Part shown: one piece after another, positions 1,377-52,900 of the stretch | How positions within the stretch are numbered: the stretch's first letter is position 1 | Layout of the letters: the number at the start of each line of letters is the position of its first letter | Assembly (NCBI RefSeq): GCF_026151205.1 | Contig: NC_087078.1 | Span: 4,357,675-4,421,674 of the forward strand | DNA from: Bolinopsis microptera | Taxonomy: Eukaryota > Ctenophora > Tentaculata > Lobata > Bolinopsidae | Direction of reading: 5' to 3' | Length of the DNA: 64,000 nt | Made by a program: the position numbers and the translations under genes | Notes under the pieces: generated by a model | Databases searched by the model: none | Told to the model about the DNA's origin: nothing | What the model saw: only the letters and a program-made list of their open reading frames with translations

Positions 1377-1547
1377 AGATATACAATAATATCGTATCGA
1401 TTTTTTTCTTTCTTCAAAATAATTATTTTCACAAAGATATATTACGGCACCTTGGTACTAGTATTGCTGTATTATAGTATTATTATAGCTTATTATTATA
1501 AGTAATCATAGTAACAAAGTATCATAGTAACAAAGTAACAAACTTAC

Positions 1548-2040
1548 CACTGAGCACAGGGTTTGTTGACAGTTTCTCCCTCACTATACAGCTCCCCGCT
1601 CATCTGACACTTGCACTGTGACTTCTCCACACAGCTCTCGTCCTCATCCCTTACCAACCCTGGAGAGCGAGGGTTTAATGATTAAGTACTGGGAGAATAT
1701 GTAGAATTAAAATATAACTTTTGAGACAAAGGTGGCAGAGAATTTTAGTAAGGTGTTTTATCCTTGGCCAATAATAGCAGCTGCATCTGTACCCATTATT
1801 TATTTTTTGATTTCCCCCTGAAATTTCATGTTGTAGAGGCTTTTACCAATGCAGCTTGTGCTTTACCTTGTTTAAAATATTCTTGTAATAAATATTACCA
1901 ACCTGGTGGACAGTTGCAGCCCTCCACTGTGGCTGTCTCATCACATCTCGGAGTTATACCAGACTTTAGATCAGAGCACGTGAGTTGGCATGACGACCCT
2001 GCTTCTTGGTACGTCTCCCCGGAAACTTGGCAGTCCACCT
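1548..2040 (-). CDS. TIL domain 2 and last visible exon
   Basis: Exon 1903-2040 encodes VDCQVSGETYQEAGSSCQLT, then CDETATVEGCNCPPG, a TIL domain. Exon 1548-1659 continues LVRDEDESCVEKSQCKCQMS, GELYSEGETVNKPCAQ and ends TG|GTAAGT in phase 2. The next exon (expected to start by completing Trp or Cys) is not found down to base 1, so the gene runs out of the window past the LINE fragments. Confidence 0.85.
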
Positions 2041-5000
2041 CTGAGGAAATCACTTGTCAGACATTGGGTGAAATGAAATCAAGATCTGGAGTTGTCTTGA
2101 TATCAACTTGTTTGTTTGGGGACCAGCTTTTGGTACACTGGTTAAATGTTTACTAATATTGAACTTGAAATAAAGACAACTCCAAACCTTTATTACCAAT
2201 TATATTACCTAAAGTTTTAACACAAAGTAAAAGCTTGCGCTTATCAGACATTTAACTATTTTATAAATGCAGATAAATGATGTAATAAAACTAACTGCAG
2301 TTTGCGGCGGATCTCCACCATAGGTTGACATCATGTCTCTCGCATTGTTTAGCGTAGAGCTCCAGTGCTTCACAGCGACATTGAGCGTGTGTCATGTGAC
2401 CAGGGCAGGAGCACATGTCCTGGGGAGATGGCCGTTATTTTAGAGATTAGAGAGTAGATCCTCAGCTCTAGACAAGGTGCTCTAGACAATTGGTGCTGGT
2501 GGGTACATTTAAAAAGTTATAACTCTATAAGTTGACTGCAAACTACAGTCTACACTATTGGATACGGGTTGTTTTTATAGTGATACAACTTCATTCGGTT
2601 TTTGAGTACTTCAATTCTTGTCTGTTAAAACTTGTTTGAACCACGCCAAGTTTTCCAGAAATGCGGCAGAACTTATAACAACACGCAACACTCATTGCTC
2701 ATGTATTGTATAAAATGTAAAATAACTAAGTCATACTCATATCCAACCTGCAAGCACATTTCATAAAACAGTTCAGGGTCCACAGTACCATGACACCTCT
2801 GAAACACCCCCTGCTCCCTGATAATCCTACAACTCTCCCGGGCCCAATTTATCTGCTCCTCCTTTCCATCACAGGGTTTCCCGGAGAGGTCTCTAGTTGG
2901 GCACTCTTCCTCTGTCCTCCAACTGTTTGCAAACTCACTTGATGAGGTCGAGAGTGCGCTGAAAGTTTGGAATTGTAGATCAACTGCGTTTAATGTGAAA
3001 CTCTCAATCGATATTATAATTTCATTTTGCACTTAGAAAGTAATTACCTTATCGGACCTTATTTGGACGGACATTAACATGAATGGACACAATTATGAAC
3101 GGACATTAATATGAACGCTCGAAGGCATTCAAAACCATCAAAAATCCAAATTTTTTTTTGACGTTTTTTAATTTCAGCAAATGATTTTTAAATCCATTTT
3201 TATACAGTAAAGTAAGGAAGAAAAGCAGTCATTAAGCAGTAAAAATGTTAAAATATGTGTACATGATCAGTGTCTAATATCACATTATATCATCTTTATC
3301 AAATGGGTTTTCGTGCATGAAATTGTCCATGCTTAAAGCATCAGTGATTTCTAGCTTAATGGAAACCTTTTTTATCAAACTACCCCGGTCATGCATTTCA
3401 GTGTTAACTTTTACAAGCCATTCGGCGTGAAGTGGTTTTATCTTAGACAACTTAATGTTAACCTTCACATTACGTGGAGCTTTCCTAGCACTGTTTCATT
3501 ACCGCCCCCGAGTAATATGAACTATAACAACTTCGGACAATGTCCTTGGCAACACGATTTACCGTCATATCTAGAGGCTGGAACAAGTTTGTCATGTTGG
3601 CGGGGACTAGTTCATGAACTATGTTGTTGAGTGCCATAATTTCGTTGACTATTTTCCGCCAAGTGACCCTTGAAAACATCATATACTAGTAGTAGTAGTA
3701 GTAGAGATTTTGTGCCTCCAGCAGACCAAGGAGAACCTTTCCGTCGTTAACTTAAGGCACAATAAAGTTCTCAAAGTTGTCATATTCTGGACAAAAAGTT
3801 CGAAATGGAACAATTTTTGAAAAAATTTCAATGGACTTTATTTGAACGGACATTAAGATGAACGCTAGGGCCTCCAGCGTTCAAGTAATGTCCGTCCAAA
3901 TAAGGTCCGATAAGGTATGTGATTATTTGTTTGAACATATTCTTGAGGTGCAAATAGCAAACACGTTTCAGCCATGCAAGGTTTTTGAAGAGTGGTGGGG
4001 TCGATACGTCACGGGTTGAAAGTTAGGTAATTGTCCCTTCCCGAGAAAATCGAAATATTGGGAGGGCCTGATTTGATTTTAAATAAAGCTGCGTCACAGA
4101 CAATAACTCTTGCTGGTAAATTAAACTGTTTTTACGTTTAACTGTTTAAAAGGATCAGAATTACAGAGTTGTAATTAAGAGAATCATTAAATCTTGTAGT
4201 TGAACTCCCAACCAGCTCAATTATAGTTTTTGACAAATGGGTTCTTTTGCGATAGTCAAAACGCGACAACTAGCGCTAGTTGGCGACAACTAGCGCTGGA
4301 TAGCGACAATTATCGAACATATATATTTTGCGCTGGCCAGCGTTATCCAGCGCTGGATAGCGACAACTAGCGCTGGATGGCGACAACTAGCGCCGAAATG
4401 TTAATCAGAGTTACAAACTTCTTTAAACCTGTGCGCGGAGATGAAGTAACTAGGTGGTAACTAGGTGGTAACTAGGTGGTAACTAGGTGGTAACTAGTTG
4501 GTAACCTGTGTGCGGAGACGAAGTCGTCACTGCTTCTCCCATTGTAGGAACCACACAGACCACACACACTCTTCTGTAAACTGTCCGGAACCGATACCTG
4601 AAGTGGGTCATTTCCGGATAATTAATAATATGTGGATAGTTAATGATATGTGGATAATTTAATGATATGTGGATAATTATGATATTCAGTTTCAACAGTA
4701 AGTAATTAAATCAGATTTTCAAATAATCCGATAGGAAATACTTTGAGTTTGAGAGTGACGGCTTGAAGTAACAATACAGTTGTGGATCAGATCTTGATAT
4801 TAAAATATCCTTAACGTTCGGTTATTAGTGATTACATCTCATTGGTTAATAATTAATCTATTAATTACAATCACCTTGACTAAGGGATATGTACAGCAGT
4901 GTGTCTGAATTATTGGCGTGTTTTTATGCGTATTTTATGATGAAATAAATATTTTTCAACGGGTCATAACTTTACTTCTGAATATCGAAATTACAAAATT

Positions 5001-8000
5001 CAAAAACTGGTCTGTAGACAATCGTTTAAATTTTTTCTAGTTTCAGAATATTGCGTTGGTGTACTTCAAAACACATAATTTAGGCCGTTATTTAAAGGGT
5101 CGATTCCATACTTGGTTAGGTTTATAAAGGAGTAAGGGATTTATGTGTCTTTTTTTCTGAAATGATTCTTTAGACTAAAGTGTACAGCTTTTCAGGCGAT
5201 AGCGAAACATATAGAATTTAGAAAACTATAGCTTTTATAAAAATTCTCTTTCTCCCCTAACTGATGAAATAAAATTTAGTCGAGCGGATGCATCCCAGAA
5301 ATCAGGGAAAGTAGCCACATTTTTCACTTTCGTCGTAATTATCGACAAAATTTACCTTCTTTCAGACTTCGATTAACTCTCGAATGATCAAAACTGCAAA
5401 ACTAACTCTAAAAAGTCAAGAAATTATCGTTTTTATAAGCTTCGGTAAGCTAAAATTTCGCGCAAAATTGTCTACGCGGTCGATAATTATGACACCCTAG
5501 GCTGTAGGACCTACCTACATCCTCTAAAATCACCTAATTTGTTCAATTTTAGGGAGGGGCGCCAAAAGGGGAGGGGGAGCTGATAGGGGGGGGGGGCGGA
5601 TTTTCGGCGGGGGTGCCAACAAGCAACGTTACGCCACTGCTGTAGGTGTCAAATTTAAAACAAGGAATGCTTGAATGCTTGAATAAAGGAATGTGCATAC
5701 ACCCTTGTAAAAAGTTGCTATTATTCCATTCCCATTTGAAGTGCTTTGTCCTGTTGGCTATTTGGCGACAGGTACATTTCTCATTTCTTGCTGTACTTTA
5801 AATTTCTTATTTCTTGTTGTAAATTTAGCTAGGACGGCAGTTCTGATGTCATTTGTATAAATGTATTTTTCTTTCTTTGATTATATCATCCCTGAGTATC
5901 ACGTTGGTAGATACTGTAGTGTTGTAGTACCCTTACCTCGGCATAATGACTACCGTCCCAGGATATCTTAATGTTATTGTAGAGACTGATAGTGACTACA
6001 AGTGAGGAGGCTTTATCCACAGTCAGGTACCGGTTATAGTACGGTATGTTGTGCTTAGTGCTCTCCTCTCCAACTCTTTGTACCTGTGGTAGTTTACTGT
6101 GGTTACTGTGGTTACTGTGGTTACTGTGGTTAATATTCAGCTACCTCATAATGGCTAATATCCCTCATGTAGCAGACCTCTAGTTTCTCAAAGTTCTAAT
6201 GAAAAACAAACGAGGAAAAGAACTGACCTGAGTAACACTAACTCCGATGATTGTAAAGATTTCTTCTGCAATAGATATACGGAGCTTCCTTCCACATGTC
6301 TTGCTGTCTTCGCAAGCTAAAGAGTAAAAAATTATAGTGTAGTTTAGATGACCCTAAAAAATCCGCCCATCTCGGATGATATGACCCCACTAACAACCCC
6401 CACTAACAACCTCCACTAACCTCCACCGCGCTGAGAGAGGATCCTGAAGCTCTGTCCTATGTTGGGGTCCAGGGGGTCACCCTGGTCACAGTTACTGAGC
6501 AGAACATACTCGCACTCCCCGTAGAAGTCAAACAGGGTATGGTCTAGTGTCTGGTAGTGTCCAAACCCTCCTACTGAGCAGGTAGATCCACAACCTGGGA
6601 TATTACCACACTCCCACCGTCCTCCAACACAGTAACTAAAGGGACAGAGTGGTTACTAGGTCGTAACTAGGTCGTAACTAGGTCGTAACTAGGTCGTAAC
6701 TAGGTCGTAACTAGGTCGTAACTAGGTCGTAACTAGGTCGTAACTAGGTCGTAACTAGGTCGTAACTAACTAAAGGGAGTTGTATATTAGTGGGATCTTT
6801 AAAATAGTTAAATTAACATTAGCCGCTCGTTCGTTGTTGTGAGGCTAGAAATTGACTTTTTATTTGACTATTTTTCTCAATTATGAAAATCTATGAAAGA
6901 CAAAGAAATGTATCTGACCATTGTTCACAGTTCTGGGTCCTCTTAGCACCGGAAGGATAGACCACGTTGTTATGTTGACAAGTGCACTGTGTTGCCGGGA
7001 TGCAAGCTCCTCCAGCATGTTCATCTGAGGGATAATTACTAATTAGTAATTAGTCTTATTTAGTTAAGTTATCCTCCTCAAGGCATTGGTACTACTTCCG
7101 ACATACACACCATTGTTCATCCGACAATGTGGCTTCCTGGCATTGCCCTATATTTCTAGCCATAATACTTCTCTTCGTGTCCGTGCCAAGAATTACATGT
7201 CGGCCAACAGGTATTTAATACTGACAGTACTATCGAAATGATAACTACTAGTATTGAACCTGCTCTGAAGCTTTAGAGAGCACACAAAAACCAGTGCTTT
7301 TATCTCTTCTATTGGACAGTACGTTGTAATATATTTTGTAATTAAAAACTCAGAAATAAATTCGTTTTTGAATTCTGTTGGCTCTAAAATGTATTTAATG
7401 TTTTATACCATGACGGCACTTTCATTTTAAATATAGTTCAAATTTCAAGCAAGTAAACGCTCCATTAGAGTTCAGACGAATTTCCCTTTGAGTGTATTAA
7501 CTTTCATTTAAATTAGTTTGAATTCTATTGAGACAAATGCGGAGACTCCCTTGTGCACCTCAATGTCAGGATATTCAGTTTTTAATTTTGGACGTTTAAT
7601 CATCCGTTTAATCCATTCGTCAGTTACATACTCCATAATATAGAAACCACTTAAATGATGTCTGGTGAGAAATGCTGGTTAAGTTTAACAGCTATGACAA
7701 GCTTTAAAGACATCATTTGAGGACGCTCAAATGATGGCTCGCAACCTGTCAGAACATTTATATAAACCATCAGAAACTGCGAAACTACCGAATATGAAAC
7801 AGCTGCCCTAATGGAAATTCTTTGCTGGACTGGAGTATGAAGAAGGCAGCAGTGATGCTATAAGGGTGATCGAACTATTCGATGACCCAGTAGAGGAATC
7901 TACGAATATCTCCTAAGTATCCTGAGTAAGAAATGTTGTGCACATACCAGCTACAGTTCCAGCAGGACAGAAGCACCCCTCAGTACACTCCAGGTCGCAC

Positions 8001-11000
8001 GTGTCATGGTGTTGGTAGTTTGCGCAGGATACCGGGCAGGAGGTCCCACAGGTTGAGTAAACCGTGTCCCCCGGACACTCTTCAGCTGGAGAATGAGAGT
8101 CTATTAGTAACAAACAACAATTGGGATAAACTTGTTCAGGATTATTATTGAGACTAGTAAGTAGTACACCTAGTTGTTTTGTTAGTTGTACCAGCTGCCA
8201 GGAAAGTAGCTGGTATAAGATAATTAGCCTCTATGACAAGAAATCTCGGTAGAATATTAGTTACTTAAAATTCCTCCTTAAAACTCCTCCTTAAAACTCC
8301 TCCTTAAAATTCCTCCTCAAACTCACAACACACGGATCCAGATCTCCAGTTGACATCAAGTCCAGTATTTCTGGCGCAGTTGGAGAAGAAAGTAGCTAGG
8401 ACGGTACAGGACGAGGAACCTGAACAAGAACTCCGGGTACAGGCTGAGTAGTAGGAGTCATCCGGGTCCGGACACTGGTCAGAGAACAGCTTTATAGCCT
8501 GAAAGGTAGGTCGTGGTCAGTGTGGTCATCATTCTACACTGGTCAGAGAACAGCTTTATAGCCTGAAAGGTAGGTCGTGGTCAGTGTGGTCATCATTCTA
8601 CACTGGTCAGAGAACAGCTTTATAGCCTGAAAGGTAGGTCTTGGTCAGTGTGGTCATCATTCTACACTGGTCAGAGAACAGCTTTATAGCCTGAAAGGTA
8701 GGTCGTGGTCAGTGTGGTCATCATTCTACACTGGTCAGAGAACAGCTTTATAGCCTGAAAGGTAGGTCGTGGTCAGTGTGGTCATCATTCTACACTGGTC
8801 AGAGAACAGCTTTATAGCCTGAAAGGTAGGTCGTGGTCAGTGTGGTCATCATTCTACACTGGTCAGAGAACAGCTTTATAGCCTGAAAGGTAGGTCGTGG
8901 TCAGTGTGGTCATCATTCTACACTGGTCAGAGAACAGCTTTATAGCCTGAAAGGAAGGTCGTGGTCAGTGTGGTCATCATTCTACACTGGTCAGAGAACA
9001 GCTTTATAGCCTGAAAGGTAGGTCGTGGTCAGTGTGGTCATCATTCTACACTGGTCAGAGAACAGCTTTATAGCCTGAAAGGTAGGTCGTGGTCAGTGTG
9101 GTCATCATTCTACACTGGTCAGAGAACAGCTTAATAGTCTGAAAGGTAGGTCGTGGTCAGTGTGGTCATCATTCTACACTGGTCAGAGAACAGCTTTATA
9201 GCCTGAAAGGAAGGTCGTGGTCAGTGTGGTCATCATTCTACACTGGTCAGAGAACAGCTTTATAGCCTGAAAGGTAGGTCGTGGTCAGTGTGGTCATCAT
9301 TCTACACTGGTCAGAGAACAGCTTTATAGCCTGAAAGGTAGGTCGTGGTCAGTGTGGTCATCATTCTACACTGGTCAGAGAACAGCTTTATAGCCTGAAA
9401 GGTAGGTCGTGGTCAGTGTGGTCATCATTCTACACTGGTCAGAGAACAGCTTTATAGCCTGAAAGGTAGGTCGTGGTCAGTGTGGTCATCATTCTACACT
9501 GGTCAGAGAACAGCTTTATAGCCTGAAAGGTAGGTCGTGGTCAGTGTGGTCATCATTCTACACTGGTCAGAGAACAGCTTTATAGCCTGAAAGGTAGGTC
9601 GTGGTCAGTGTAGTCATCATTCTACACTGGTCAGAGAACAGCTTTATAGCCTGAAAGGTAGGTCGTGGTCAGTGTGGTCATCATTCTACACTGGTCAGAG
9701 AACAGCTTTATAGCCTGAAAGGAAGGTCGTGGTCAGTGTGGTCATCATTCTACACTGGTCAGAGAACAGCTTAATAGCCTGAAAGGTAGGTCGTGGTCAG
9801 TGTGGTCATCATTCTACACTGGTCAGAGAACAGCTTTATAGCCTGAAAGGTAGGTCGTGGTCAGTGTGGTCATCATTCTACACTGGTCAGAGAACAGCTT
9901 TATAGCCTGAAAGGAAGGTCTTGGTCAGTGTGGTCATCATTCTACACTGGTCAGAGAACAGCTTTATAGCCTGAAAGGAAGGTCGTGGTCAGTGTGGTCA
10001 TCATTCTACACTGGTCAGAGAACAGCTTTATAGCCTGAAAGGTAAGTCGTGGTCAGTGTGGTCATCATCCAACACTATGACGTGTTGGAGAGTGACGTAA
10101 TTTAGCACGCTCGTGTATAGAGACTAGAGAGAGGTACGGTACATAAGGCTCTATAGTGAATAATTTAGTGTCAAGTGCTGCTCAATGGCGACAACTTGGT
10201 CTCTTGATTGTTGACAACTGCATCTGATGAATTTATAAATCATTTTAGTGGCCTTAGGGTACATGTACTCTACTTCGACACACACTCTATATGACATGTA
10301 CTATAGTTCAAAAAACCCTTAAGTTTGACTGTGTTGAACTAGACTGCTCTTGAAATCGCACAACTTAGTCTTTTTGTTGTTGCTAATATATAGGTACTTA
10401 TAGGTACTATAATTGAAACATGAAACATCAGGCCAACGTCGTGAATTTTCAACTAATTTGTTTAGCTTTTATAAGCTTCTAATAGAGCATGGAACGGATA
10501 GTTTGTAGTTTGATTATTAGTTTGATAACTTGGAGAACAGACAAATTAATGATATTTTTGGCAGATAAAAGAATTTTTATGAGGGCAATCTTCTCATAAT
10601 GACACATTTCCAATATCTCTTATTGGGATACGATATTGTATGTGATATTATTTCTCAATTAATATCTCTGGTTGAGATAATTGGCCATCAGTCTATCTCT
10701 ACAGATACTATACTTGTATCTATGGATACTATCCTTGTTTCTAGGATACTATCTTTGTTTCTAGGATACTATCTTTTTATCTAGGATACTATCTTTGTAT
10801 ATAGGATACTATCTTTGTATCTAGGATACTATCTTTGTATCTAGCTCTCACCTTGCACTCCTCCGCTGGTTGCTCTTCATCGCAAGCTCTCGGAACAGTA
10901 CAGTTCCCTGCAAAGAAGGCGAATTAGCAGTGAATTAACAGTAAGCGTTAAAGATGATTTCACATTTAGTCACTAATTGCTAAGGAGTATGGTCATATTG

Positions 11001-14000
11001 CTATATTGGCATTGTTTAGTAGGTTAATATTACTTAATAACTTGACGCTACTATAATTTTATTTATTTTAAAGCAGTTAATTAGCGGATGTGATGTATCA
11101 GATTCAATAATAGTGGCTTGTAATGATCTTCGTTAATGTCATCGGAACAATTACAAATAACGAGAATCCAACATTTACCAAAGTCTCATTCGTCGTACAA
11201 AACGGTTTATTATGATTGATGCACGTTCCGTTAATTAGCTAAATATCAAGACTGCATATAAATAATTTATGATCATTCCCTCATTTTATCATCTCTTGTA
11301 GTTAATTCTTTTCGTTTCTTTGCAGCTTACCTATTTGACCTAACCTATCTAGCTTCTCATATCAATATTGATATCTTAATATAAGGTCATACCGCGAGTA
11401 GCACCAATCATGCCTCATCGAGATGTATAGTGAGTTACCTTGAGCCCATGAGTTCAGGAAGGAGATAGCATCAGTCTGGTCCCCGAATGGGTCAGTAAAC
11501 TCATCCTCCGAATCTCCGTTGAAGTCTCCACAGAGACCACACAATCGCTCCCTGATTGGATAATGAGGGGGTTTAATAAAATCAGTTATTATTGTGTTCA
11601 CCTTCTGGATTGGTACTTGGATTTAATTTCTAGTGCACAATGTCTTCATACTACAACTTTTTTAAATTTAAGTCTCTCGATTTTCGAACATTAACTTTTG
11701 TTGGTTTGTGTTTTCTGGTTATTGTTGGATTTATTCATGAAGTATGATGGGTATCGTGTTTGGATGACATGCCGTGTATAGGAGGAAGCTACTACAAGAT
11801 CAATTAGCTCGCACTTCCTCGGGACGTTGCCACAATCTGACACGTGACAACGATTAACCGATGAGTTTGCAGCAGTAACCAATCAAACCCTCGGTTAGTT
11901 AACTGACGTGGTAACACAAATGTGTCACGTCATTGCAAATGGTGAAACGAAGGGCTACGCCGACCCCGCTGTGCGGGGGGGGAGCAATCTTAGGGGGTCG
12001 CCAAATCGACGTTTGAATGAGGGACAATTTCGAAAAATCAACAGGGGGGGCGCTTTTTCAGCGGGGGGGAGGGGGCGCCAACAGGCAACGTTAGGGTCTT
12101 TTTTTTTAATCTGTGCCTCTATTCCCCGAGAGTTTCCTTGCCAACTGGCGGGAGCTCTAAACATGTACTGTGCCTTTTGACCCACGCCATGACCCACGCC
12201 ATGTGGTCCGTCACCACATGGCGTAGTGTGGGCAGAAATTCGGGGAATAGAGGCGTAGTGTGGGCAGACCCTTACGCCACTGTATATGGCAAATGTGTCA
12301 CGTCATGGCAAATGTGTTGCCCTCTATTTTACCTGAAGTGAGAGTCTGCGTGTACATGTAAACTATCTGCTCCGTCCCAGCGAACTGAAATGTCCTGAAA
12401 AGTGGATTTTATAAAGGGCGTTATCTTATGATTTATCTGTAATGGTATGTAATGAATTTTAGCAGACTATGATTGCCGTCAAGGTGTGCAAGTTCGAGTC
12501 AAAATCATGGAGAGTAACTCAAAAAATCACTTAGAAACATTTAAGTGAATGTCACGACCTTATTTGTCTCTATTTTATATTAGACCTGAACTTCAATCAG
12601 AAAATATATGTAATTTCTCCTAAAAAGCAATTGCTGATTTTAACATACAGGCGTGGTTACAAAGAGGAAGAATCCGACTCTCTGCAGTATAATCTCGTTA
12701 ACACTGTGCGGGAGAGCGACAGTCACCCCGTCAACCTCCACTAGCCCGTCACGTGACAGTACAATGTGATGTGTTGTGTAGTGGATATCAACCTGGAGAA
12801 TAGGGGGTCATTACTGGGACATTATAAATACTGGGACTTTACAGCTCCGCTACGTATACCGCTGTGGAGTGTGGAATAGGAGGTCATTACAGGGACATTA
12901 TAAATACTGGTACATTACAAATAGGAGGTCATTACAGGGACATTATAAATACTGATTACTGGGACATTACAAACCACACCTTGCTCCACCACGTATACCG
13001 CTGTGGAATGAGGGGTTATTATGCTATGTCTCCACAACAACGTATACCGCTGCTATTACGACATACGTCACTAGACATTGTGAGGTGTAATTTGTATCCC
13101 TATTCCCTTTAACCTGATATTGGCAGTGCCAAGCCCAACACCTGTCAGTATCCTGACAGGTTCTACATCAATCTGATATCTTGTGCTGGGTAATTTTCAT
13201 TCTTTAGATATTTGAGGTCAATTTGATCTCTGCTTCAGCGGTTCTTGGCGGTTGTCAGTGTAATTTTAGCTTTTTGTTATTTACATTTTTTGTTGACTCC
13301 AACTCTTTGTAGTTCTGTGACGCAATATAACTGGTTGTAACTTTTCGAACCTATGACGCAACATGACTGGTGGCTGGCAAACCTTTTTTGCGAACACTGG
13401 CCTTCAAACCAGCACGTGAATAATAGAGTTTAAAACCAATCAACAGAAAGATGCAATAATCTCAAAACTGCTGACGGCAACAGGTGGTGAGCCTGTAACT
13501 TACCAGTGAGATCTGTGATACTCTGTCACGTGACTGCAAGGTTTGGTCACGTGACAGCGAGGTTAGCAGAATCTTGAACTTCTGTTCTTCAGAGCAGTCC
13601 TTAGCTAGCACGTGCTGGCAGTTTGTGGTTTTCTGGTAGTGCAGACCGTCGAACGACAGCAGGTTCCCCCCAAAAACTTGACAGACACCTGCGGAGATGA
13701 TGATAAGGTTTTTTTTTATTCTTTCGTTTTGTATCTCGTATGATTGGTCTCAGCTGAGAAATAAGATTTCTTCTGACGTCACACGAAGTTTAATAACTTG
13801 ATTAAAATAATAAAAAGTGTGCAGTTTTAATGTTTAGATTGATAGAAATGCCTTTACAGTTTACAAGCTTAACAAGATCAAGTCGTTGCTCCAGGAATTA
13901 ACTGTATCCCTTATGACACCGTCTTATTGCTTTATACTTTTATAGAGCGGATACACTTATGAATATCATTATCTTGAGTGAGTGAGGGGTTTCATAACGT

Positions 14001-17000
14001 TTTACGGCAGTTATTAAGGAATACGTTTATATAGGGGTTTGCCTTGGTTGCAGCATCGCTTCACTTATAGGTGCATATAGGGCCCAATGTAATTGCTATG
14101 ATCAGTTTACTGGTCAACTGGTGTTTCGGTGTCCCTAATTTTGTTTACACTCGGTCACTTGTCAAGGCATGTAAGGTCATTCGGCGATATTTTCTTTGAA
14201 ATAAAATGATGTATTTGTGTAACAATTTGAAAGTTTATTGATTAAAAAAAAGAAAAAAAAAAGCTTTGTGATTATCGCAGTCTCCGATTCGCCTAGTGAT
14301 TCTCGGATCTTTACTAGCTTCATTTGCTGACGTTTCAGTTCAAACACCTTGAGCAATTACACAGAATTGATCAAGCCTGTACTCTTTAAGAGCTTAGCAA
14401 TTCAATTTAATTTGTGAGGGTTTCGCTCTAGCTGAGCGTTGCTGACCAATGACCATTTACCAGAGCGGTGATATCCATGTACCTTGTAACGTGAACTTTA
14501 TTGCTTTTATTTCCAGTCTAGAGTTATTTCCTTGATTATAAACTGTGCTTAGTAATCAGAGTTTATAAGCAGTGCTTACCATTGCAAGAGCTGGTATCAC
14601 AACTCCACCTTCTGCTCTGACATTCACTGAGAAACAACGATTTATTAATTCTTGAATGATTTAGTTTTAATTAAACAGCGTGCAAGACTTTCTAACTATC
14701 ATGAAGTCATGATATCACAGTGACTGCTACTTTTTTCTAATATTAGGTAACAATTCACAATCCACACAGTGTCCACTGACCATCTCCTACACCCTGCAAC
14801 TCTGATCTGACCCTCAGTCTCACAGACTACCTCATCTTTCTGTATTTCTGATCTGTAATTTGGTCCTGTCAGCACTGAAAATACAATAGTTGTGCTTTGT
14901 TTGTGGGGGAGGTATAAATAAATAGAATACATAGAAAATAATGGTTTTACAAAGAAAGTATTTAATCTCCACAAATATGGCTAAATACTTTCTTTGTAAA
15001 ACTTGCTATAAATTGTTTATATTGACGTGGTTCCTTTATTTTACGTGAAGATGAGTTTTACATAAAAAATTGCTCTCTAAATGTTAGATCTGAGTATCAC
15101 AGCTAGTTTATATCACGACATGCTGGATTAAAACTAATGTGGTTTTATCAAGTCTTTAATATTTTGACCTGCTAATGATCAAGCAAATGAACTGTGTTAG
15201 TTATAATATATCTCATCAGAGTGAAATAAGTATGGAGGACGTAAGACTTTTAACTTATAGTTATAAAAACAGTAAAATGGACAGCAGCATGCAAGTACTC
15301 AAGAAGTATCCCCTTTCTTAATAATTAGTTTCATTAGTATAATTACTACTAATTAGACTGACCTTGATCGCAGTCGTCTCCCGTCCAGCCTGGGCAGCAT
15401 TCCCTTATTTCCCTAGGGTCGTGTACATATGTCATTCTGAAATCATACTTTAACTTACTTTCCGATGTTCAGTAAGAAATAAACTTTTGTAGAAGAAATA
15501 AACTTTTGTAGAAGGATTGGCACGATCAATTAATGAAAATTTAACATAATTATTACTTATTAGCATTATTGGGCAGTATCCAGATAGCCCGACACTTTTT
15601 CGCGAACAGGTGTTCGCGAGTTCATTCGTTTTGTTTTCTCTGTTTGTGTACAACTGTCGGGTAATCTGGATACTGCCCACTATTGCAATTAGATTATTAT
15701 CATTTAATATTTATATGTAAGAGTGTCATGAGCATAATATGATCCATGAGGCCTTTGTTAGCGTCATTCTTTCATTAACTTCATACAGACAGAAAGATCT
15801 TCAAATGTACAGCTCATTCTTTATATCCCCAATAATTACTTGCATTTAATCTTTGTTGTTTGATAATTAATTAATTTTTTTAAATTTGATATCTTTTGTT
15901 TAATGGCCAATTAATTACTATCTGTTTAATCTCTGTTGTCGGAATGAGTGTGAACTTGCTTACCAGGCAATCATGATTTCCGCTTGGTACTCATCAGGTC
16001 TCTAAGAAAGCCAACAGTATGCTGATATGTATTGTCATATGTACTTCCTAGAAGCAGCACACGGCCCATTTCGGACTTGCACGAGTTATAATTATATTTT
16101 TATTAATCTCTGTTGTTTTAATGGTGAGGCAGGCTAATCAATGAGTGTCTTACAAAGCTGTAACAGCTGGTGTTGCATTCAACCCACCCGGCGTCCAATG
16201 CACAATTTATCTAATGGCTAAATAAATTGCAAGAATATTGGTGAGAGAAGGCGGAATTTATTCGGATTGTTGTCTGGTAAGCTGCAGGTAACTGTAAAGC
16301 CGTAAGTGGTGTAGTAAGTAGTGTAGTTACGTTTTAAAATAGACTTGCAATGCAGGTATATTTCTGCATTACGTACAGAGCATCCACTAGTACGATATGA
16401 TATTGCTGTTTTTCTGTTAATCATAAAGATTCAGACGCGTATATTAATATAATATTCAGTCACTACATATTCAGTACATAATAAAATATTTCTTTGAAAT
16501 TGTCATTTTTTATTGAAATCTTGTATTCAGATCTGTTAACTGATCGGAATTGTATACTAAGATACTAGTTCTGATTAACTATATTTTTATTTTTAGCAAT
16601 AAATTAAATATAGATCGTATAATGATGATCGTGTGCCTAATCACAAATTATTCATAACATTTTTTTTCTTAGATTTCTGTTTATCTTGAAATTGCTCAGT
16701 TTTTATTCGTTTTCATTTTCACAACTACAAATCACTACAACTGCAAATCACACGAATCGAGATTTCTCAGTATTCGGGGCAATTATAACTCTACATTTGT
16801 AACATCATCGAGCAATCAGCAAATCATCACTTTATTGTAGCTTACTAAACATTCTAATCTACAAAAATTTCAAACTTACTAAGCATAAACCTTACAAAAT
16901 TAATTTCGACCTGTAATTATAAAACTCACTTTATCCGATGACAAGCTTCAGTTCCTCCATCTGGGTCAGCACATCTTCGTACCCTAATACTCCTTACAAA

Positions 17001-43900: not shown

Positions 43901-46900
43901 TCCAACTTTTCACAAATAAATCTTAGAACTGTGCAGTATCGATAATAAAAAATAAAAATAACTCTGCGCCAGGAATCAGTAAATTAACGGTTAAGGGGGG
44001 GTGGGGGGGGGGTTCACCCTGATTTTTTTGTGAAACTTGGTTTCGAGATAGCAGTTGACCAACAAACTAGGACCGGTGACCAAACTTTTGAGGGGGTCCC
44101 GGACCCCAACCGCCAAACGGTGCCCGCGGGGCAGCCACGCCCATATTTGGTCCAAATTAGGTCAAATTTAGCCAAATAGCCTGAACATGCCCAAAAACCA
44201 GATTTTAGGTGCTCTTCTTGTAGCTAGTGGTCTCTTGAACTCGTATATGAATTTTCATTAAGATTGGACAAAAAATGACCGAGTTATGAGCCAAAAACCA
44301 TATGACCATATTTGGGCATACGCACCAAATTTGATCGATTTTGGCCCATAAATTGGTCAAATATCAATATTTTTGAATGAAACCAACTTTATATGGAAGG
44401 TAAGCCTATACTACACATCCTCTATGATTATCAGCTCAGTATCTACCTAACTGTGGATTCTGTGTTCAAATAATCGCAAAAAATGAACAAAATCGTCCAT
44501 ATCTCAGTTCGCGATATTTGCGAAACTGATTTCGCTCAAAACAATAGAACTCAATAGGGTTTCCATATTTTTACATGAAATTTTCAGAATCAACGTAGAA
44601 TCGCATTTCGACCTTAAGTTTTGTATTGGAATTTTGAGTTAGGCCTTTAAAAAAATTTGGCGGCCAAATTCTGAAAAATGCCAGGCAAATTTTGGAATTT
44701 GGCCGCCAAATTTTTTTAAAGGCCTAACTCAAAATTCCAATACAAAACTTAAGGTCGAAATGCGATTCTACGTTGATTCTGAAAATTTCATGTAAAAATA
44801 TGGAAACCCTATTGAGTTCTATTGTTTTGAGCGAAATCAGTTTCGCAAATATCGCGAACTGAGATATGGACGATTTTGTTCATTTTTTGCGATTATTTGA
44901 ACACAGAATCCACAGTTAGGTAGATACTGAGCTGATAATCATAGAGGATGTGTAGTATAGGCTTACCTTCCATATAAAGTTGGTTTCATTCAAAAATATT
45001 GATATTTGACCAATTTATGGGCCAAAATCGATCAAATTTGGTGCGTATGCCCAAATATGGTCATATGGTTTTTGGCTCATAACTCGGTCATTTTTTGTCC
45101 AATCTTAATGAAAATTCATATACGAGTTCAAGAGACCACTAGCTACAAGAAGAGCACCTAAAATCTGGTTTTTGGGCATGTTCAGGCTATTTGGCTAAAT
45201 TTGGCCTAATTTGGACCAAATATGGGCGTGGCTGCCCCGCGGGCACCGTTTGGCAGTTGGGGTCCGGGACCCCCTCAAAAGTTTGGTCACCGGTCCTAGT
45301 TTGTTGGTCAACTGCTATCTCGAAACCAAGTTTCACAAAAAAATCAGGGTGAACCGCCCCCCCCCCCTCCCCTTAAACAAACCATACATCCCCAGGTGAA
45401 TGGGATGACACATTCAAGTACAAAAAACACCCTTACGCTTGCGACTACCAAGGGAAATATATCCTCTCCAGTTCTTTGTCGAGTTGGAGCCAAGCTAAAG
45501 CGGCTTGTGAAAAGGCTGGACTACAGCTGGCAAAGGTAAGACTTGAAGAACTTAATCGACCCTTAATTTTCTGGCCTTTGGCTTTAATACTTAAGATATC
45601 AAGAGTTTAAATTCCCAAATAGCCAGACTGAGCAGGTTGAGCTGTAGTAAAACAGAGTACTGAGGTGTTAAAACATTTTCATTACTATCTTCAGTAACAT
45701 CCTGAATCAGAAACTCGGTTAATATCAGTTCTTACAAAGTGTAACATTGGAAATGAAATGACACAACTAAAAACGATATGAATATTTTTAAAAACATAAC
45801 TCTTGTGCCCCAATGCAATACTTAAAATATAAAATGTCATCTTACAAACTCCAGTTCTATCTACCATCTACTTCATCAAACTCTGTCCTACTTTTCCCTC
45901 TCCCTCCTATTCTGGTTCTTTTCAGCAAGCTCGGGCTATATTCTGCTCTATCTAGCTCTATCCTATTTTTCTCTCTCCTCCTATTCTAGTTATTTTCAGC
46001 AAGCTCGGGCTATATTCTGCTCTATCTAGCTCTATCCTACTTTTCCCTCTCCCTCCTATTCTAGTTCTTTTCAGCAAGCTCGGGCTATATTCTGCTCTAT
46101 CTAGCTCTATCCTATTTTTCTCTCTCCTCCTATTCTAGTTATTTTCAGCAAGCTCGGGCTATATTCTGCTCTATCTAGCTCTATCCTACTTTTCCCTCTC
46201 CCTCCTATTCTAGTTATTTTCAGCAAGCTCGGGCTATATTCTGCTCTATCTAGCTCTATCCTACTTTTCTCTCTCCTCCTATTCTAGTTCTTTTCAGCAA
46301 GCTCGGGCTATATTCTGCTCTATCTAGCTCTATCCTACTTTTCTCTCTCCCTCCTATTCTAGTTCTTTTCAGCAAACTCGGGCTATATTCCGCTCTATCT
46401 AGCCCTACTCTACTTTTCCCTCTCCCTCCTATTCTAGTTCTTTTCAGCAAGCTCGGGTTATTTTCTGCTCTATCTAGCTCTATCCTACTTTTCTCTCTCC
46501 CTTCTACTCTAGTTCTTTTCAGCAAGCTCGGGTTATTTTCTGCTCTATCTAGCTCTATCCTACTTTTCCCTCTCCGTCCCTCCTATTCTAGTTCTTTTCA
46601 GCAAGCTCGGGTTATTTTCTGCTCTATCTAGCTCTATCCTACTTTTCTCTCTCCCTTCTACTCTAGTTCTTTTCAGCAAGCTCGGGTTATTTTCTGCTCT
46701 ATCTAGCTCTATCCTACTTTTCCCTCTCCCTCCTATTCTAGTTATTTTCAGCAAGCTCGGGCTATATTTTGCTCTATCTAGCTCTATTCTACTTTTCCCT
46801 CTCCCTCCTATTCTAGTTCTTTTCAGCAAACTCGGGCTATATTCCGCTCTATCTAGCCCTACTCTACTTTTCCCTCTCCCTCCTATTCTAGTTCTTTTCA

Positions 46901-49900
46901 GCAAGCTCGGGTTATTTTCTGCTCTATCTAGCTCTATCCTACTTTTCTCTCTCCCTTCTACTCTAGTTCTTTTCAGCAAGCTCGGGTTATTTTCTGCTCT
47001 ATCTAGCTCTATCCTACTTTTCTCTCTCCCTCCTATTCTAGTTCTTTTCAGCAAGCTCGGGTTATTTTCTGCTCTATCTAGCTCTATCCTACTTTTCTCT
47101 CTCCCTTCTACTCTAGTTCTTTTCAGCAAGCTCGGGTTATTTTCTGCTCTATCTAGCTCTATCCTACTTTTCCCTCTCCCTCCTATTCTAGTTATTTTCA
47201 GCAAGCTCGGGCTATATTTTGCTCTATCTAGCTCTATTCTACTTTTCCCTCTCCGTCCCTCCTATTCTAGTTCTTTTCAGCAAGATCGGGCTATATTCTG
47301 CTCTATCTAGCTCTATCCTACTATTCTCTCTCCCTCCTATTCTAGTTCTTTTCAGCAAGATCGGGCTATATTCTGCTCTATCTAGCTCTATCCTACTTTT
47401 CCCTCTCCCTCCTATTCTAGTTATTTTCAGCAAGCTCGGGCTATATTTTGCTCTATCTAGCTCTATTCTACTTTTCCCTCTCCGTCCCTCCTATTCTAGT
47501 TCTTTTCAGCAAGCTCGGGCTATATTCTGCTCTATCTAGCTCTATCCTACTTTTCCCTCTCCCTCCTATTCTGGTTCTTTTCAGCAAGCTCGGGCTATAT
47601 TCTGCTCTATCTAGCTCTATCCTACTTTTCCCTCTCCCTCCTATTCTAGTTCTTTTCAGCAAGCTCGGGCTATATTCTGCTCTATCTAGCTCTATCCTAC
47701 TTTTCCCTCTCCGTCCCTCCTATTCTGGTTCTTTTCAGCAAGCTCGTGCTATATTCTGCTCTATCTAGCTCTATCCTACTTTTCCCTCTCCCTACTATTC
47801 TAGTTCTTTTCAGCAAGCTCGGGCTATATTCTGCTCTATCTAGCTCTATCCTACTTTTCCCTCTCCCTCCTATTCTAGTTCTTTTCAGCAAGCTCGGGCT
47901 ATATTCTGCTCTATATAGCTCTATCCTACTTTTCCCTCTCCGTCCCTCCTATTCTAGTTCTTTTCAGCAAGCTCGTGCTATATTCTGCTCTATCTAGCTC
48001 TATCCTACTTTTCCCTCTCCCTACTATTCTAGTTCTTTTCAGCAAGCTCGGGCTATATTCTGCTCTATATAGCTCTATCCTATTTTTCTCTCTCCCTCCT
48101 ATTCTAGTTATTTTCAGCAAACTCGGGCTATATTCTGCTCTATCTAGCTCTATCCTACTTTTCTCTCTCCTCCTATTCTAGTTATTTTCAGCAAGCTCGG
48201 GCTATATTTTGCTCTATCTAGCTCTATCCTACTTCCCCTCTCCCTCATATTCTGGTTCTTTTCGCCAAGCTCGGGCTATATTTTGCTCTATCTAGCTCTA
48301 TCCTACTTTTCCCTCTCCGTCCCTCCTATTCTAGTTCTTTTCAGCAAGCTCGTGCTATATTCTGCTCTATCTAGCTCTATCCTACTTTTCCCTCTCCCTA
48401 CTATTCTAGTTCTTTTCAGCAAGCTCGGGCTATATTCTGCTCTATATAGCTCTATCCTACTTTTCTCTCTCCTCCTATTCTAGTTATTTTCAGCAAGCTC
48501 GGGCTATATTTTGCTCTATCTAGCTCTATCCTACTTTTCCCTCTCCTCCTATTCTGGTTCTTTTCAGCAAGCTCGGGCTATATTCTGCTCTATATAGCTC
48601 TATCCTACTTTTCTCTCTCCTCCTATTCTAGTTATTTTCAGCAAACTCGGGCTATATTCTGCTCTATCTAGCTCTATCCTACTTTTCTCTCTCCTCCTAT
48701 TCTAGTTATTTTCAGCAAGCTCGGGCTATATTTTGCTCTATCTAGCTCTATCCTACTTTTCCCTCTCCTACTATTCTAGTTCTTTTCAGCAAGCTCGGGC
48801 TATATTCTGCTCTATATAGCTCTATCCTACTTTTCTCTCTCCTCCTATTCTAGTTATTTTCAGCAAACTCGGGCTATATTCTGCTCTATCTAGCTCTATC
48901 CTACTTTTCTCTCTCCTCCTATTCTAGTTATTTTCAGCAAGCTCGGGCTATATTTTGCTCTATCTAGCTCTATCCTACTTTTCCCTCTCCCTACTATTCT
49001 AGTTCTTTTCAGCAAGCTCGGGCTATATTCCGCTCTGTCTAGCTCTATCCTACTTTTCCCTCTCCGTCCCTCCTATTCTAGTTCTTTTCAGCAAGCTCGT
49101 GCTATATTCTGCTCTATCTAGCTCTATCCTACTTTTCCCTCTCCCTACTATTCTAGTTCTTTTCAGCAAGCTCGGGCTATATTCTGCTCTATATAGCTCT
49201 ATCCTACTTTTCTCTCTCCTCCTATTCTAGTTATTTTCAGCAAGCTCGGGCTATATTCTGCTCTATATAGCTCTATCCTATTTTTCTCTCCTCCTATTCT
49301 GGTTCTTTTCAGCAAGCTCGGGCTATATTTTGCTCTATCTAGCTCTATCCTACTTTTCCCTCTCCGTCCCTCCTATTCTAGTTCTTTTCAGCAAGCTCGT
49401 GCTATATTCTGCTCTATCTAGCTCTATCCTACTTTTCCCTCTCCCTACTATTCTAGTTCTTTTCCTTATATTTGACCAATTATGGCCAATCGATCAATTT
49501 TCGTCTACCCCAATATGTCTGGTTTTTGCTCATAACTCGGTCATTTTTTCCAATCTAATGAAAATCATATCACGTTTCAAGAGACCACTACACAGAAACC
49601 CTAAATCTGTTTTTTGGCAGTCAGCTATTTGGCTAAATTTTGCCTATTTGGACCAAATATGGCTAGCTTGTTCCCCGTGCACCGTTGGCAGTTGGGGTCG
49701 GACCCCAAAGTTTTTCACACCGGTCTAGTATTTTGGTCACTGCTACTCAAACCAAGTTCACAAAAAAATCAGTACCGTTCCCCCCCCTCCCTTAACAACC
49801 ATAATCCAGTGAATGGGATTACAATTCAAGTACAAACACCTTACGCTTTGCCACTACCTAGGATTATATCCTCTCCAGTCCTTTTCGAGTTGGATGTTCC

Positions 49901-52900
49901 AGCAAGCTCTTGTGAAAGCTGATATCAGCTGCAAAGTAACTTGAGACTCTATACCTAATTTTCTGGCCTTTGGCTTTAATACTTAAGATATCAAGAGTTT
50001 AAATTCCCAAATAGTCAGACTGAGCAGGTTGAGCTGTAGTAAAACAGAGTACTGAGGTGTTAAAACATTTTCATTACTATCTTCAGTAACATCCTGAATC
50101 AGAAACTCGGTTAATATCAGTTCTTACAAAGTGTAACATTGGAAATGAAATGACACAACTAAAAACGATATGAATATTTTTAAAAACATAACTCTTGTGC
50201 CCCAATGCAATACTTAAAATATAAAATGTCATCTTACAAACTCCAGTTCTATCTACCATCTACTTCATCAAACTCTGTCCTACTTTTCCCTCTCCTCCTA
50301 TTCTAGTTCTTTTCAGCAAGCTCGGGCTATATTCTGCTCTATCTAGCTCTATCCTATTTTTCTCTCTCCTCCTATTCTAGTTCTTTTCAGCAAGCTCGGG
50401 CTATATTCTGCTCTATCTAGCTCTATCCTACTTCCCCTCTCCCTCCTATTCTAGTTCTTTTCAGCAAGCTCGGGCTATATTCTGCTCTATCTAGCTCTAT
50501 CCTACTTTTCCCTCTCCCTCCTATTCTAGTTCTTTTCAGCAAGCTCGGGCTATATTCTGCTCTATCTAGCTCTATCCTACTTTTCCCTCTCCCTCCTATT
50601 CTAGTTCTTTTCAGCAAGCTCGGGCTATATTCTGCTCTATCTAGCTCTATCCTACTTTTCCCTCTCCCTCCTATTCTAGTTATTTTCAGCAAGCTCGGGC
50701 TATATTCTGCTCTATCTAGCTCTATCCTACTTTTCCCTCTCCCTCCTATTCTGGTTCTTTTCAGCAAGCTCGGGCTATATTCTGCTCTATCTAGCTCTAT
50801 CCTACTTTTCCCTCTCCTCCTATTCTAGTTCTTTTCAGCAAACTCGGGCTATATTCTGCTCTATATAGCTCTATCCTACTTTTTCCTCTCCCTCCTATTC
50901 TAGTTATTTTCAGCAAGCTCGTGCTATATTCTGCTCTATCTAGCTCTATCCTACTTTTCCCTCTCCTCCTATTCTAGTTCTTTTCAGCAAACTCGGGCTA
51001 TATTCTGCTCTATCTAGCTCTATCCTATTTTTCTCTCTCCTCCTATTCTAGTTCTTTTCAGCAAGCTCGGGCTATATTCTGCTCTATCTAGCTCTATCCT
51101 ATTTTTCCCTCTCCCTCCTATTCTAGTTCTTTTCAGCAAGCTCGGGCTATATTCTGCTCTATCTAGCTCTATCCTACTTTTCCCTCTCCCTCCTATTCTA
51201 GTTCTTTTCAGCAAGCTCGGGCTATATTCTGCTCTATCTAGCTCTATCCTACTTTTCCCTCTCCCTCCTATTCTAGTTCTTTTCAGCAAGCTCGGGCTAT
51301 ATTCTGCTCTATCTAGCTCTATCCTACTTTTCCCTCTCCCTACTATTCTAGTTCTTTTCAGCAAGCTCGGGCTATATTCTGCTCTATCTAGCTCTATCCT
51401 ACTTTTCCTCTCCCTCCTATTCTAGTTCTTTTCAGCAAGCTCGGGCTATATTCTGCTCTATCTAGCTCTATCCTACTTTTCCCTCTCCCTACTATTCTAG
51501 TTCTTTTCAGCAAGCTCGGGCTATATTCTGCTCTATCTAGCTCTATCCTACTTTTCCCTCTCCCTCCTATTCTAGTTCTTTTCAGCAAGCTCGGGCTATA
51601 TTCTGCTCTATCTAGCTCTATCCTACTTTTCTCTCTCCCTCCTATTCTAGTTCTTTTCAGCAAGCTCGGGCTATATTCTGCTCTATCTAGCTCTATCCTA
51701 CTTTTCCCTCTCCCTCCTATTCTAGTTCTTTTCAGCAAGCTCGGGCTATATTCGCTCTATCTAGCTCTATCCTACTTTCCCTCTCCCTCCTATTCTAGTT
51801 CTTTTCAGCAAGCTCGGGCTATATTCCGCTCTATCTAGCTCTATCCTACTTCCCCTCTCCCTCCTATTCTAGTTCTTTTCAGCAAGCTCGGGCTATATTC
51901 TGCTCTATCTAGCTCTATCCTACTTTTCCCTCTCCCTACTATTCTAGTTCTTTTCAGCAAGCTCGGGCTATATTCTGCTCTATCTAGCTCTATCCTACTT
52001 TTCCCTCTCCCTCCTATTCTAGTTCTTTTCAGCAAGCTCGGGCTATATTCTGCTCTATCTAGCTCTATCCTACTTTCCCTCTCCCTCCTATTCTAGTTCT
52101 TTTCAGCAAGCTCGGGCTATATTCTGCTCTATCTAGCTCTATCCTACTTTTCCCTCTCCCTACTATTCTAGTTCTTTTCAGCAAGCTCGGGCTATATTCT
52201 GCTCTATCTAGCTCTATCCTACTTTTCCCTCTCCCTCATATTCTAGTTCTTTTCAGCAAGCTCGGGCTATATTCTGCTCTATCTAGCTCTATCCTACTTT
52301 TCCCTCTCCCTCCTATTCTAGTTCTTTTCAGCAAGCTCGGGCTATATTCCGCTCTATCTAGCTCTATCCTACTTCCCCTCTCCCTCCTATTCTAGTTCTT
52401 TTCAGCAAGCTCGGGCTATATTCTGCTCTATCTAGCTCTATCCTACTTTTCCCTCTCCCTCCTATTCTGGTTCTTTTCAGCAAGCTCGGGCTATATTCTG
52501 CTCTATCTAGCTCTATCCTACTTTTCCCTCTCCCTACTATTCTAGTTCTTTTCAGCAAGCTCGGGCTATATTCTGCTCTATCTAGCTCTATCCTACTTTT
52601 CCCTCTCCCTACTATTCTAGTTCTTTTCAGCAAGCTCGGGCTATATTCTGCTCTATCTAGCTCTATCCTACTTTTCCCTCTCCCTACTATTCTAGTTCTT
52701 TTCAGCAAGCTCGGGCTATATTCTGCTCTATCTAGCTCTATCCTACTTTTCTCTCTCTCTCCTATTCTAGTTCTTTTCAGCAAGCTCGGGCTATATTCTG
52801 CTCTATCTAGCTCTATCCTACTTTTCCCTCTCCCTCCTATTCTAGTTCTTTTCAGCAAGCTCGGGCTATATTCTGCTCTATCTAGCTCTATCCTACTTTT

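Follow-up and report, generated by a model that had tools for sequence, protein, structure and literature searches.

Within the window (the whole 64,000-nucleotide stretch of Bolinopsis microptera DNA analysed here), the end of one intron and the start of the following exon are repeated in tandem 25 times. This raises the question of which of so many near-identical 3′ splice sites a transcript would use, and of how such an array could arise.

A repeated intron/exon boundary in a VWD-C8-TIL gene

TRF reported the array with a period of 64, 25.1 copies, 98 % matches and a score of 3112 (Table 1). Each unit comprises 37 intronic and 27 exonic bases, reading AGAATGATGACCACACTGACCACGACCTACCTTTCAG/GCTATAAAGCTGTTCTCTGACCAGTGT on the minus strand (the slash marks the splice junction here and below), the intronic part containing a branch-point-like CTGAC, a pyrimidine tract and AG. 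The 64-bp spacing is exact across the 25 units; 15 are identical to the consensus, whilst the remaining 10 carry one to three substitutions, giving a mean pairwise difference of 1.04 per 64 bases (n = 25) and eight variable columns (six intronic, two exonic). AG is kept in 25/25 units, and the outermost copy, which is transcribed first, has three differences, the highest of the 25, the copy at the exon-proximal edge having none. The original prediction of 25 near-equal acceptors at 64-base spacing, each with an exon start and all lying before the real C8 exon, was thereby confirmed by TRF, unit comparison and the junctions; it had counted 24 coding bases per unit where we find 27, and did not give the strand of the host gene and array, which is the minus strand for both.

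A Pfam scan of 10 ORF proteins gave VWD in three, C8 in two, TIL in one and no domain in four. The gene was previously named SCO-spondin-like; its domains are equally those of other VWD-C8-TIL proteins and do not single out SCO-spondin. The array-holding intron carries a 20-bp array near its 5′ end and the 64-bp array at its 3′ end; the C8 exon has its donor, GTGAGT, starting at 8326, and the intron downstream of it is 241 nt long. When the preceding exon is joined to the exon of the last copy the frame reads ..EECK/AIKLFSDQCPDPDDSYYSAC.., and the placement of the C8 exon made earlier holds, as the last acceptor opens 8498..8327 in phase 0. This exon is 37 % identical to the C8 exon of the paralogue L011, and the array-encoded CK/AIKLFSDQC aligns in frame and without gaps with CELIK/QYSDQC of L011; as such, the repeated exon start is a duplicate of ancient coding sequence and not an array captured as an exon.

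Smaller repeats adjoin other junctions of the same gene. At 4423–4523 (minus strand) a VWD exon's final 18 bases and its donor (CTTCGTCTCCGCACACAG/GTTACC) have an imperfect repeat 77 bp downstream (CTTCATCTCCGCGCACAG/GTTTAA), the two donor copies being separated by an 11-bp array; this is a degenerate donor duplication that the 20-mer junction test described below did not flag. Placed junctions are also adjoined by an acceptor-like CCACAG repeat (6094–6132, 9 bp × 4.3) and a donor-like GTTAGT repeat (6385–6420, 13 bp × 2.8).

A two-unit query against the genome (264.65 Mb, 232 contigs) gave at least 12 matches, all within the array; the search skips very common words, so that its counts are lower bounds and copies elsewhere may have been missed. 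A dispersed satellite or transposon was rejected, as the query matched this locus alone at these lower-bound counts. A phage search returned nothing, as expected for an animal gene. Two glutamate-receptor fragments of this genome each matched four distinct PDB chains at E below 1e-15, three being ML032222a, whose ML prefix is the Mnemiopsis gene code, and one 4zdm, a Pleurobrachia receptor; the ML032222a fragment in turn found its best counterpart here at 77 % identity. Such ctenophore-type receptors told against a lancelet host.

Table 1. Features of the VWD-C8-TIL gene and junction-spanning arrays at other loci
Feature	Position or locus	Strand	Size and details	Evidence
VWD-C8-TIL gene, stretch read	1547..14874	−		Pfam VWD, C8, TIL; 34 junctions placed by eye
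Next exon, TIL domain	7948..8085	−		Pfam TIL E 5.4e-9; donor read by eye
13-bp array	8264..8321	−	4.5 copies; begins at sixth base of intron after C8 exon	TRF; junctions
Real C8-domain exon	8327..8498	−	172 nt; acceptor phase 0, predicted to be fed by exon-proximal copy	Pfam C8 E 2.7e-5; junctions
64-bp array over 3′ splice site	8472..10076	−	25 copies plus 5-base AGTGT remainder	TRF; unit-by-unit comparison
Array-holding intron	8499..10851	−	2,353 nt; donor GTGAGA at 10851	TRF; junctions
20-bp array	10704..10844	−	7 copies; begins after first 7 intron bases	TRF
Preceding exon	10852..10907	−	56 nt; ends phase 0 (..EECK/)	Junction reading
Donor array	L004		43-bp unit, 34 further copies (TRF: 35.8, truncated at locus end)	20-mer test; TRF
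Donor array	L010		10 further copies, 31 bp	20-mer test
Acceptor array	L011		2 further copies	20-mer test
Acceptor array (kinesin)	L049		37 further copies, steps 21–23 bp	20-mer test
Donor repeat	L049		1 further copy, 38 bp	20-mer test
Acceptor repeat	L039		1 further copy, 158 bp	20-mer test
Donor array (myosin), end of P-loop exon	L026		22.1 × 40 bp, 100 % match	TRF and reading; uncounted
Acceptor array (myosin)	L033		3.1 × 72 bp	TRF and reading; uncounted
Acceptor array (kinesin)	L045		4.7 × 49 bp, runs off locus	TRF and reading; uncounted
Donor pair	L050		53 bp	TRF and reading; uncounted

Comparison with lancelet mirages and other known systems

Tandem repeats spanning intron/exon boundaries are known from lancelets as 'mirages', in Adh and globin genes (PMC3087553) and in TnC and PGBD5 (PMC3902484), the Adh3 case being credited in both papers to Canestro et al. 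(2002). In these reports, the boundary-spanning unit (in Adh3, BflGb6/BflGb9, TnC and PGBD5) lies at a 5′ or a 3′ splice site, measures 10–160 bp (PMC3087553), and has the real boundary at an end copy. The array described here likewise consists of a tandem unit across an intron/exon boundary, in 25 copies, its 64 bp fall within the published range, and a real coding exon, recognized by Pfam C8 and by in-frame homology to L011, stands at its edge. By its anatomy the array is a mirage, and the earlier statement that no such case had been described does not stand, since lancelet mirages share this anatomy and the same genome holds other arrays. There are also differences: the two haplotypes of BflGb6 carry 6 and 3 units (PMC3087553), as against 25 here and ∼36–38 at L004 and L049; PGBD5 copies are described as imperfect, whereas the ctenophore copies are near-identical; and it is in lancelets that splicing, which RT-PCR suggests is undisturbed (PMC3087553), and length instability have been measured. 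Among the open papers searched we found no report of a mirage in ctenophores or any other non-lancelet, and the available text of the Hormiphora (PMC8527503) and Mnemiopsis (PMC11797021) genome papers makes no mention of junction arrays. Mirages, previously confined to lancelets in the open papers searched, are now seen repeatedly in a ctenophore, motor-protein genes included, which suggests that their origin needs little more than an abundance of intronic minisatellites.

Tandem alternative acceptors (NAGNAG and similar) also set several competing AGs before one exon. Unlike these, the copies here are complete-looking 3′ sites 64 bp apart that all include a branch-point-like site, and choosing an alternative leads to a stop. 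Intron gain from AG/GT sites copied in tandem (Rogers; Gao & Lynch; Zhuo et al., cited by PMC3087553) similarly involves tandem duplication of segments bearing splice signals, but the present copies stay inside an existing intron.

Choice among 25 acceptors

The preceding exon was joined by script to each of the 25 acceptors. With 24/24 upstream acceptors a stop appeared at codon index 41 or 45, and with the last acceptor the C8 frame was open. Two options had been offered originally, namely that splicing reliably chooses the last copy or that alternative micro-exons are made; as the frame is kept by the exon-proximal copy alone, the former is the likelier.

Array acceptors, scored with a generic matrix not trained on this genome, ranged from 6.6 to 9.1 (n = 25): 18, including the copy presumed to be used, have 7.4, and copy 10 is the lowest at 6.6, whilst copies 7, 11, 19, 22 and 23 (9.1) and 24 (7.9) score higher than the used acceptor, which counts against proximal choice. 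Because the score of the used acceptor is common to 18/25 copies and close to the family median of 7.5 (46 acceptors), strength cannot select among the copies, and position must. In every unit the A of CTGAC lies 19 bases ahead of the exon, and with its own tract and AG each copy thus forms a complete-looking 3′ splice site.

As regards position, a survey of alternative sites states that large flanking introns favour the nearest site across the exon, and short introns the nearest across the intron (PMC9225289). The array intron is 2,353 nt long but the next only 241 nt, so that the exon has a large intron on one side only and the case is not a pure one; moreover, intron definition would favour the copy nearest the upstream donor and break the frame, which again counts against proximal choice. 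Nevertheless, the exon-proximal acceptor is the most likely to be used, since exon definition would pair it with the donor at 8326 on the far side of the exon (upstream intron 2.35 kb). The reading we favour, with a probability of about 0.82, is that of a mirage-type array, in which an AGTGT-bounded acceptor duplication expanded to 25 copies. The transcript would then present 25 equivalent acceptors, all of them equipped with a branch-point-like CTGAC, a tract and AG. Of these, the exon-proximal one would most likely be used by the spliceosome, and the other 24 copies would leave with the intron as a tolerated intronic minisatellite. We infer both proximal choice and neutrality of the array, and the same positional logic would fit donor arrays, in which the first donor is the one that has to be chosen.

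The proposal of alternative micro-exons draws on the presence of an acceptor and a GT in each unit. On the coding strand the GT sites score −6.5, −0.6 and −0.4, the latter two lying in TGTAGAATG, whereas the 43 real donors placed in the VWD-C8-TIL gene and five related loci have a median of 6.9 and a minimum of 0.3; no usable donor thus follows any copy. Given also that the resulting exons would be 23 or 25 nt long, neither length being divisible by three, and would shift the frame, the chance that upstream copies yield micro-exons is close to negligible.

It may also be argued that the array is used, with upstream acceptors spliced at a real rate, the stop-containing mRNAs decayed, and array length tuning the amount of protein. 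Such a role would suit both the early stops in 24/24 upstream choices and the finding that 23/24 upstream acceptors score no lower than the used one, copy 10 being the only lower one. Folds of one unit, of two joined units and of the stretch next to the exon, however, were no better than those of shuffles (z 0.39, −0.04 and 0.47, respectively), and RNA structure hiding the upstream copies was rejected on this result. As lancelet mirages are reported not to disturb splicing, and repeats at junctions are not enriched over intron interiors (see below), we consider a regulatory array distinctly improbable.

Junction-spanning arrays elsewhere in the genome

Genes were sampled by homology, not by repeats, to give 295 junctions, of which 89 belong to the window gene or one of five VWD-type loci, 102 to myosin and CCT genes, and 104 to kinesin and adaptin genes. 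VWD-family junctions were picked by eye with the hypothesis known, whilst motor, CCT and adaptin junctions were called by script, using 51/58 introns (myosin and CCT) and 52/62 introns (kinesin and adaptin), the other 7 and 10 having failed the score filter. Loci L007 and L009 were left out, as were L001, L002 and L008 (in the window region) and L006 (overlapping L011); the window TIL donor was omitted from the junction counts, and the first of 28 matching places was taken for the L004 donor string. A junction was scored as repeated when the 20 bases centred on it recurred within 2.5 kb with ≤ 3 mismatches.

By this test 7/295 junctions recurred, or 6/294 without the query, made up of 3/88 VWD-type, 0/102 counted myosin and CCT, and 3/104 kinesin and adaptin junctions. 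The arrays at L026, L033, L045 and L050 fall outside the count because their introns were unpaired or failed the filter. Pfam identified the exon peptides as Myosin_head at L026 (5.3e-11) and at L033/L018 (6.7e-8; 31.7 bits, under the 33.3 cut-off), Kinesin at L045 (1.3e-23) and TIL at L004 (1.9e-7). These separate arrays of the same kind also bear on whether assembly inflated or collapsed the copy number in the window. The genome search covered one haplotype and gave no second, which leaves some room for such an error, but with an array of only 1.6 kb and private and shared variants scattered among its copies, we judge it very unlikely.

The many arrays abutting junctions in the VWD-C8-TIL gene first prompted the idea of a hot spot. 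With the query excluded, the frequency of recurring 20-mers was 6/294 at the junction, 2/293 and 1/292 at 20 and 50 bp into the exon, and 19/293, 29/293 and 22/290 at 20, 30 and 50 bp into the intron. Targeting of arrays to splice sites was rejected on this profile. TRF arrays of period ≥ 7 occur in 31/103 script-called introns and take up 6,410 of 55,409 intron bases. Junction arrays thus seem to be the edge, on the exon side, of a minisatellite growth that is general in introns and is held in check by constraint on coding bases.

Two observations concern the kinesin genes. An intron at L049 (4345–6051) holds a 21-bp unit, GTATGTTTTCAGGAGGTAACA, in two blocks of 14.9 and 24.2 copies, the second reaching the called acceptor and representing the smallest acceptor unit seen. 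The kinesin copies L034 and L035, 87 kb apart, are 97.5 and 99.7 % identical in their aligned parts and differ in one intron (122 vs 1,062 bp), the longer version of which contains tandem repeats; splice scores there are weak.

Origin and consequences of the arrays

The myosin paralogues L018 and L033, whose aligned blocks are 91–98 % identical, carry one and three copies, respectively, of a 72-bp acceptor unit. In single-copy L018 one CAACTATTTC is intronic and another exonic, matching both ends of the repeated unit. Judged from these sequences, the pair points to an origin in which short direct repeats bounded the segment that was duplicated, although the difference could instead be a loss, from three to one. 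The window array has AGTGT at both of its outer ends, a 5-base homology and hence a weaker trace than that in L018/L033. Such an origin would here mean that a short stretch across the acceptor of the C8 exon gained a tandem copy, the ends of the duplication probably being set by two AGTGT direct repeats separated by 59 bases. Slippage or unequal exchange would then have raised the number of units to 25, a mechanism we infer for the 64-bp array.

The array-bearing intron (boundary at 8498) lies exactly 9 nt (three codons) upstream of the homologous L011 intron (minus-sense index 1503) and in the same phase, a displacement for which intron sliding is a possible explanation on sequence comparison. 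This offset, seen in the CK/AIKLFSDQC and CELIK/QYSDQC junctions, hints at splice-site turnover. A broader proposal, that junction minisatellites are so common in ctenophores (∼2 % of sampled junctions) as to act as an engine of such turnover, providing reserve sites, sliding boundaries and new introns, is speculative and in our estimation unlikely. Junction arrays make genes harder to annotate and could contribute to the sliding or gain of introns, and they offer natural test cases, with up to tens of near-identical splice sites in competition, for how a site is chosen by position alone.

Elsewhere in the window, a 7.1-kb array of 75-bp units (45881–53031, ∼95 copies) lies beside ORFs that by eye resemble C-type-lectin; the plus strand of its consensus contains acceptor-like sites, the best of which scores 8.6 and all of which are candidates only. 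Across the window and loci, GTTACT/AGTAAC was the top-ranked 6-mer, present in 11/99 distinct array units where random windows would lead one to expect 1.85 (uncorrected for multiple testing), and is a possible shared minisatellite core.
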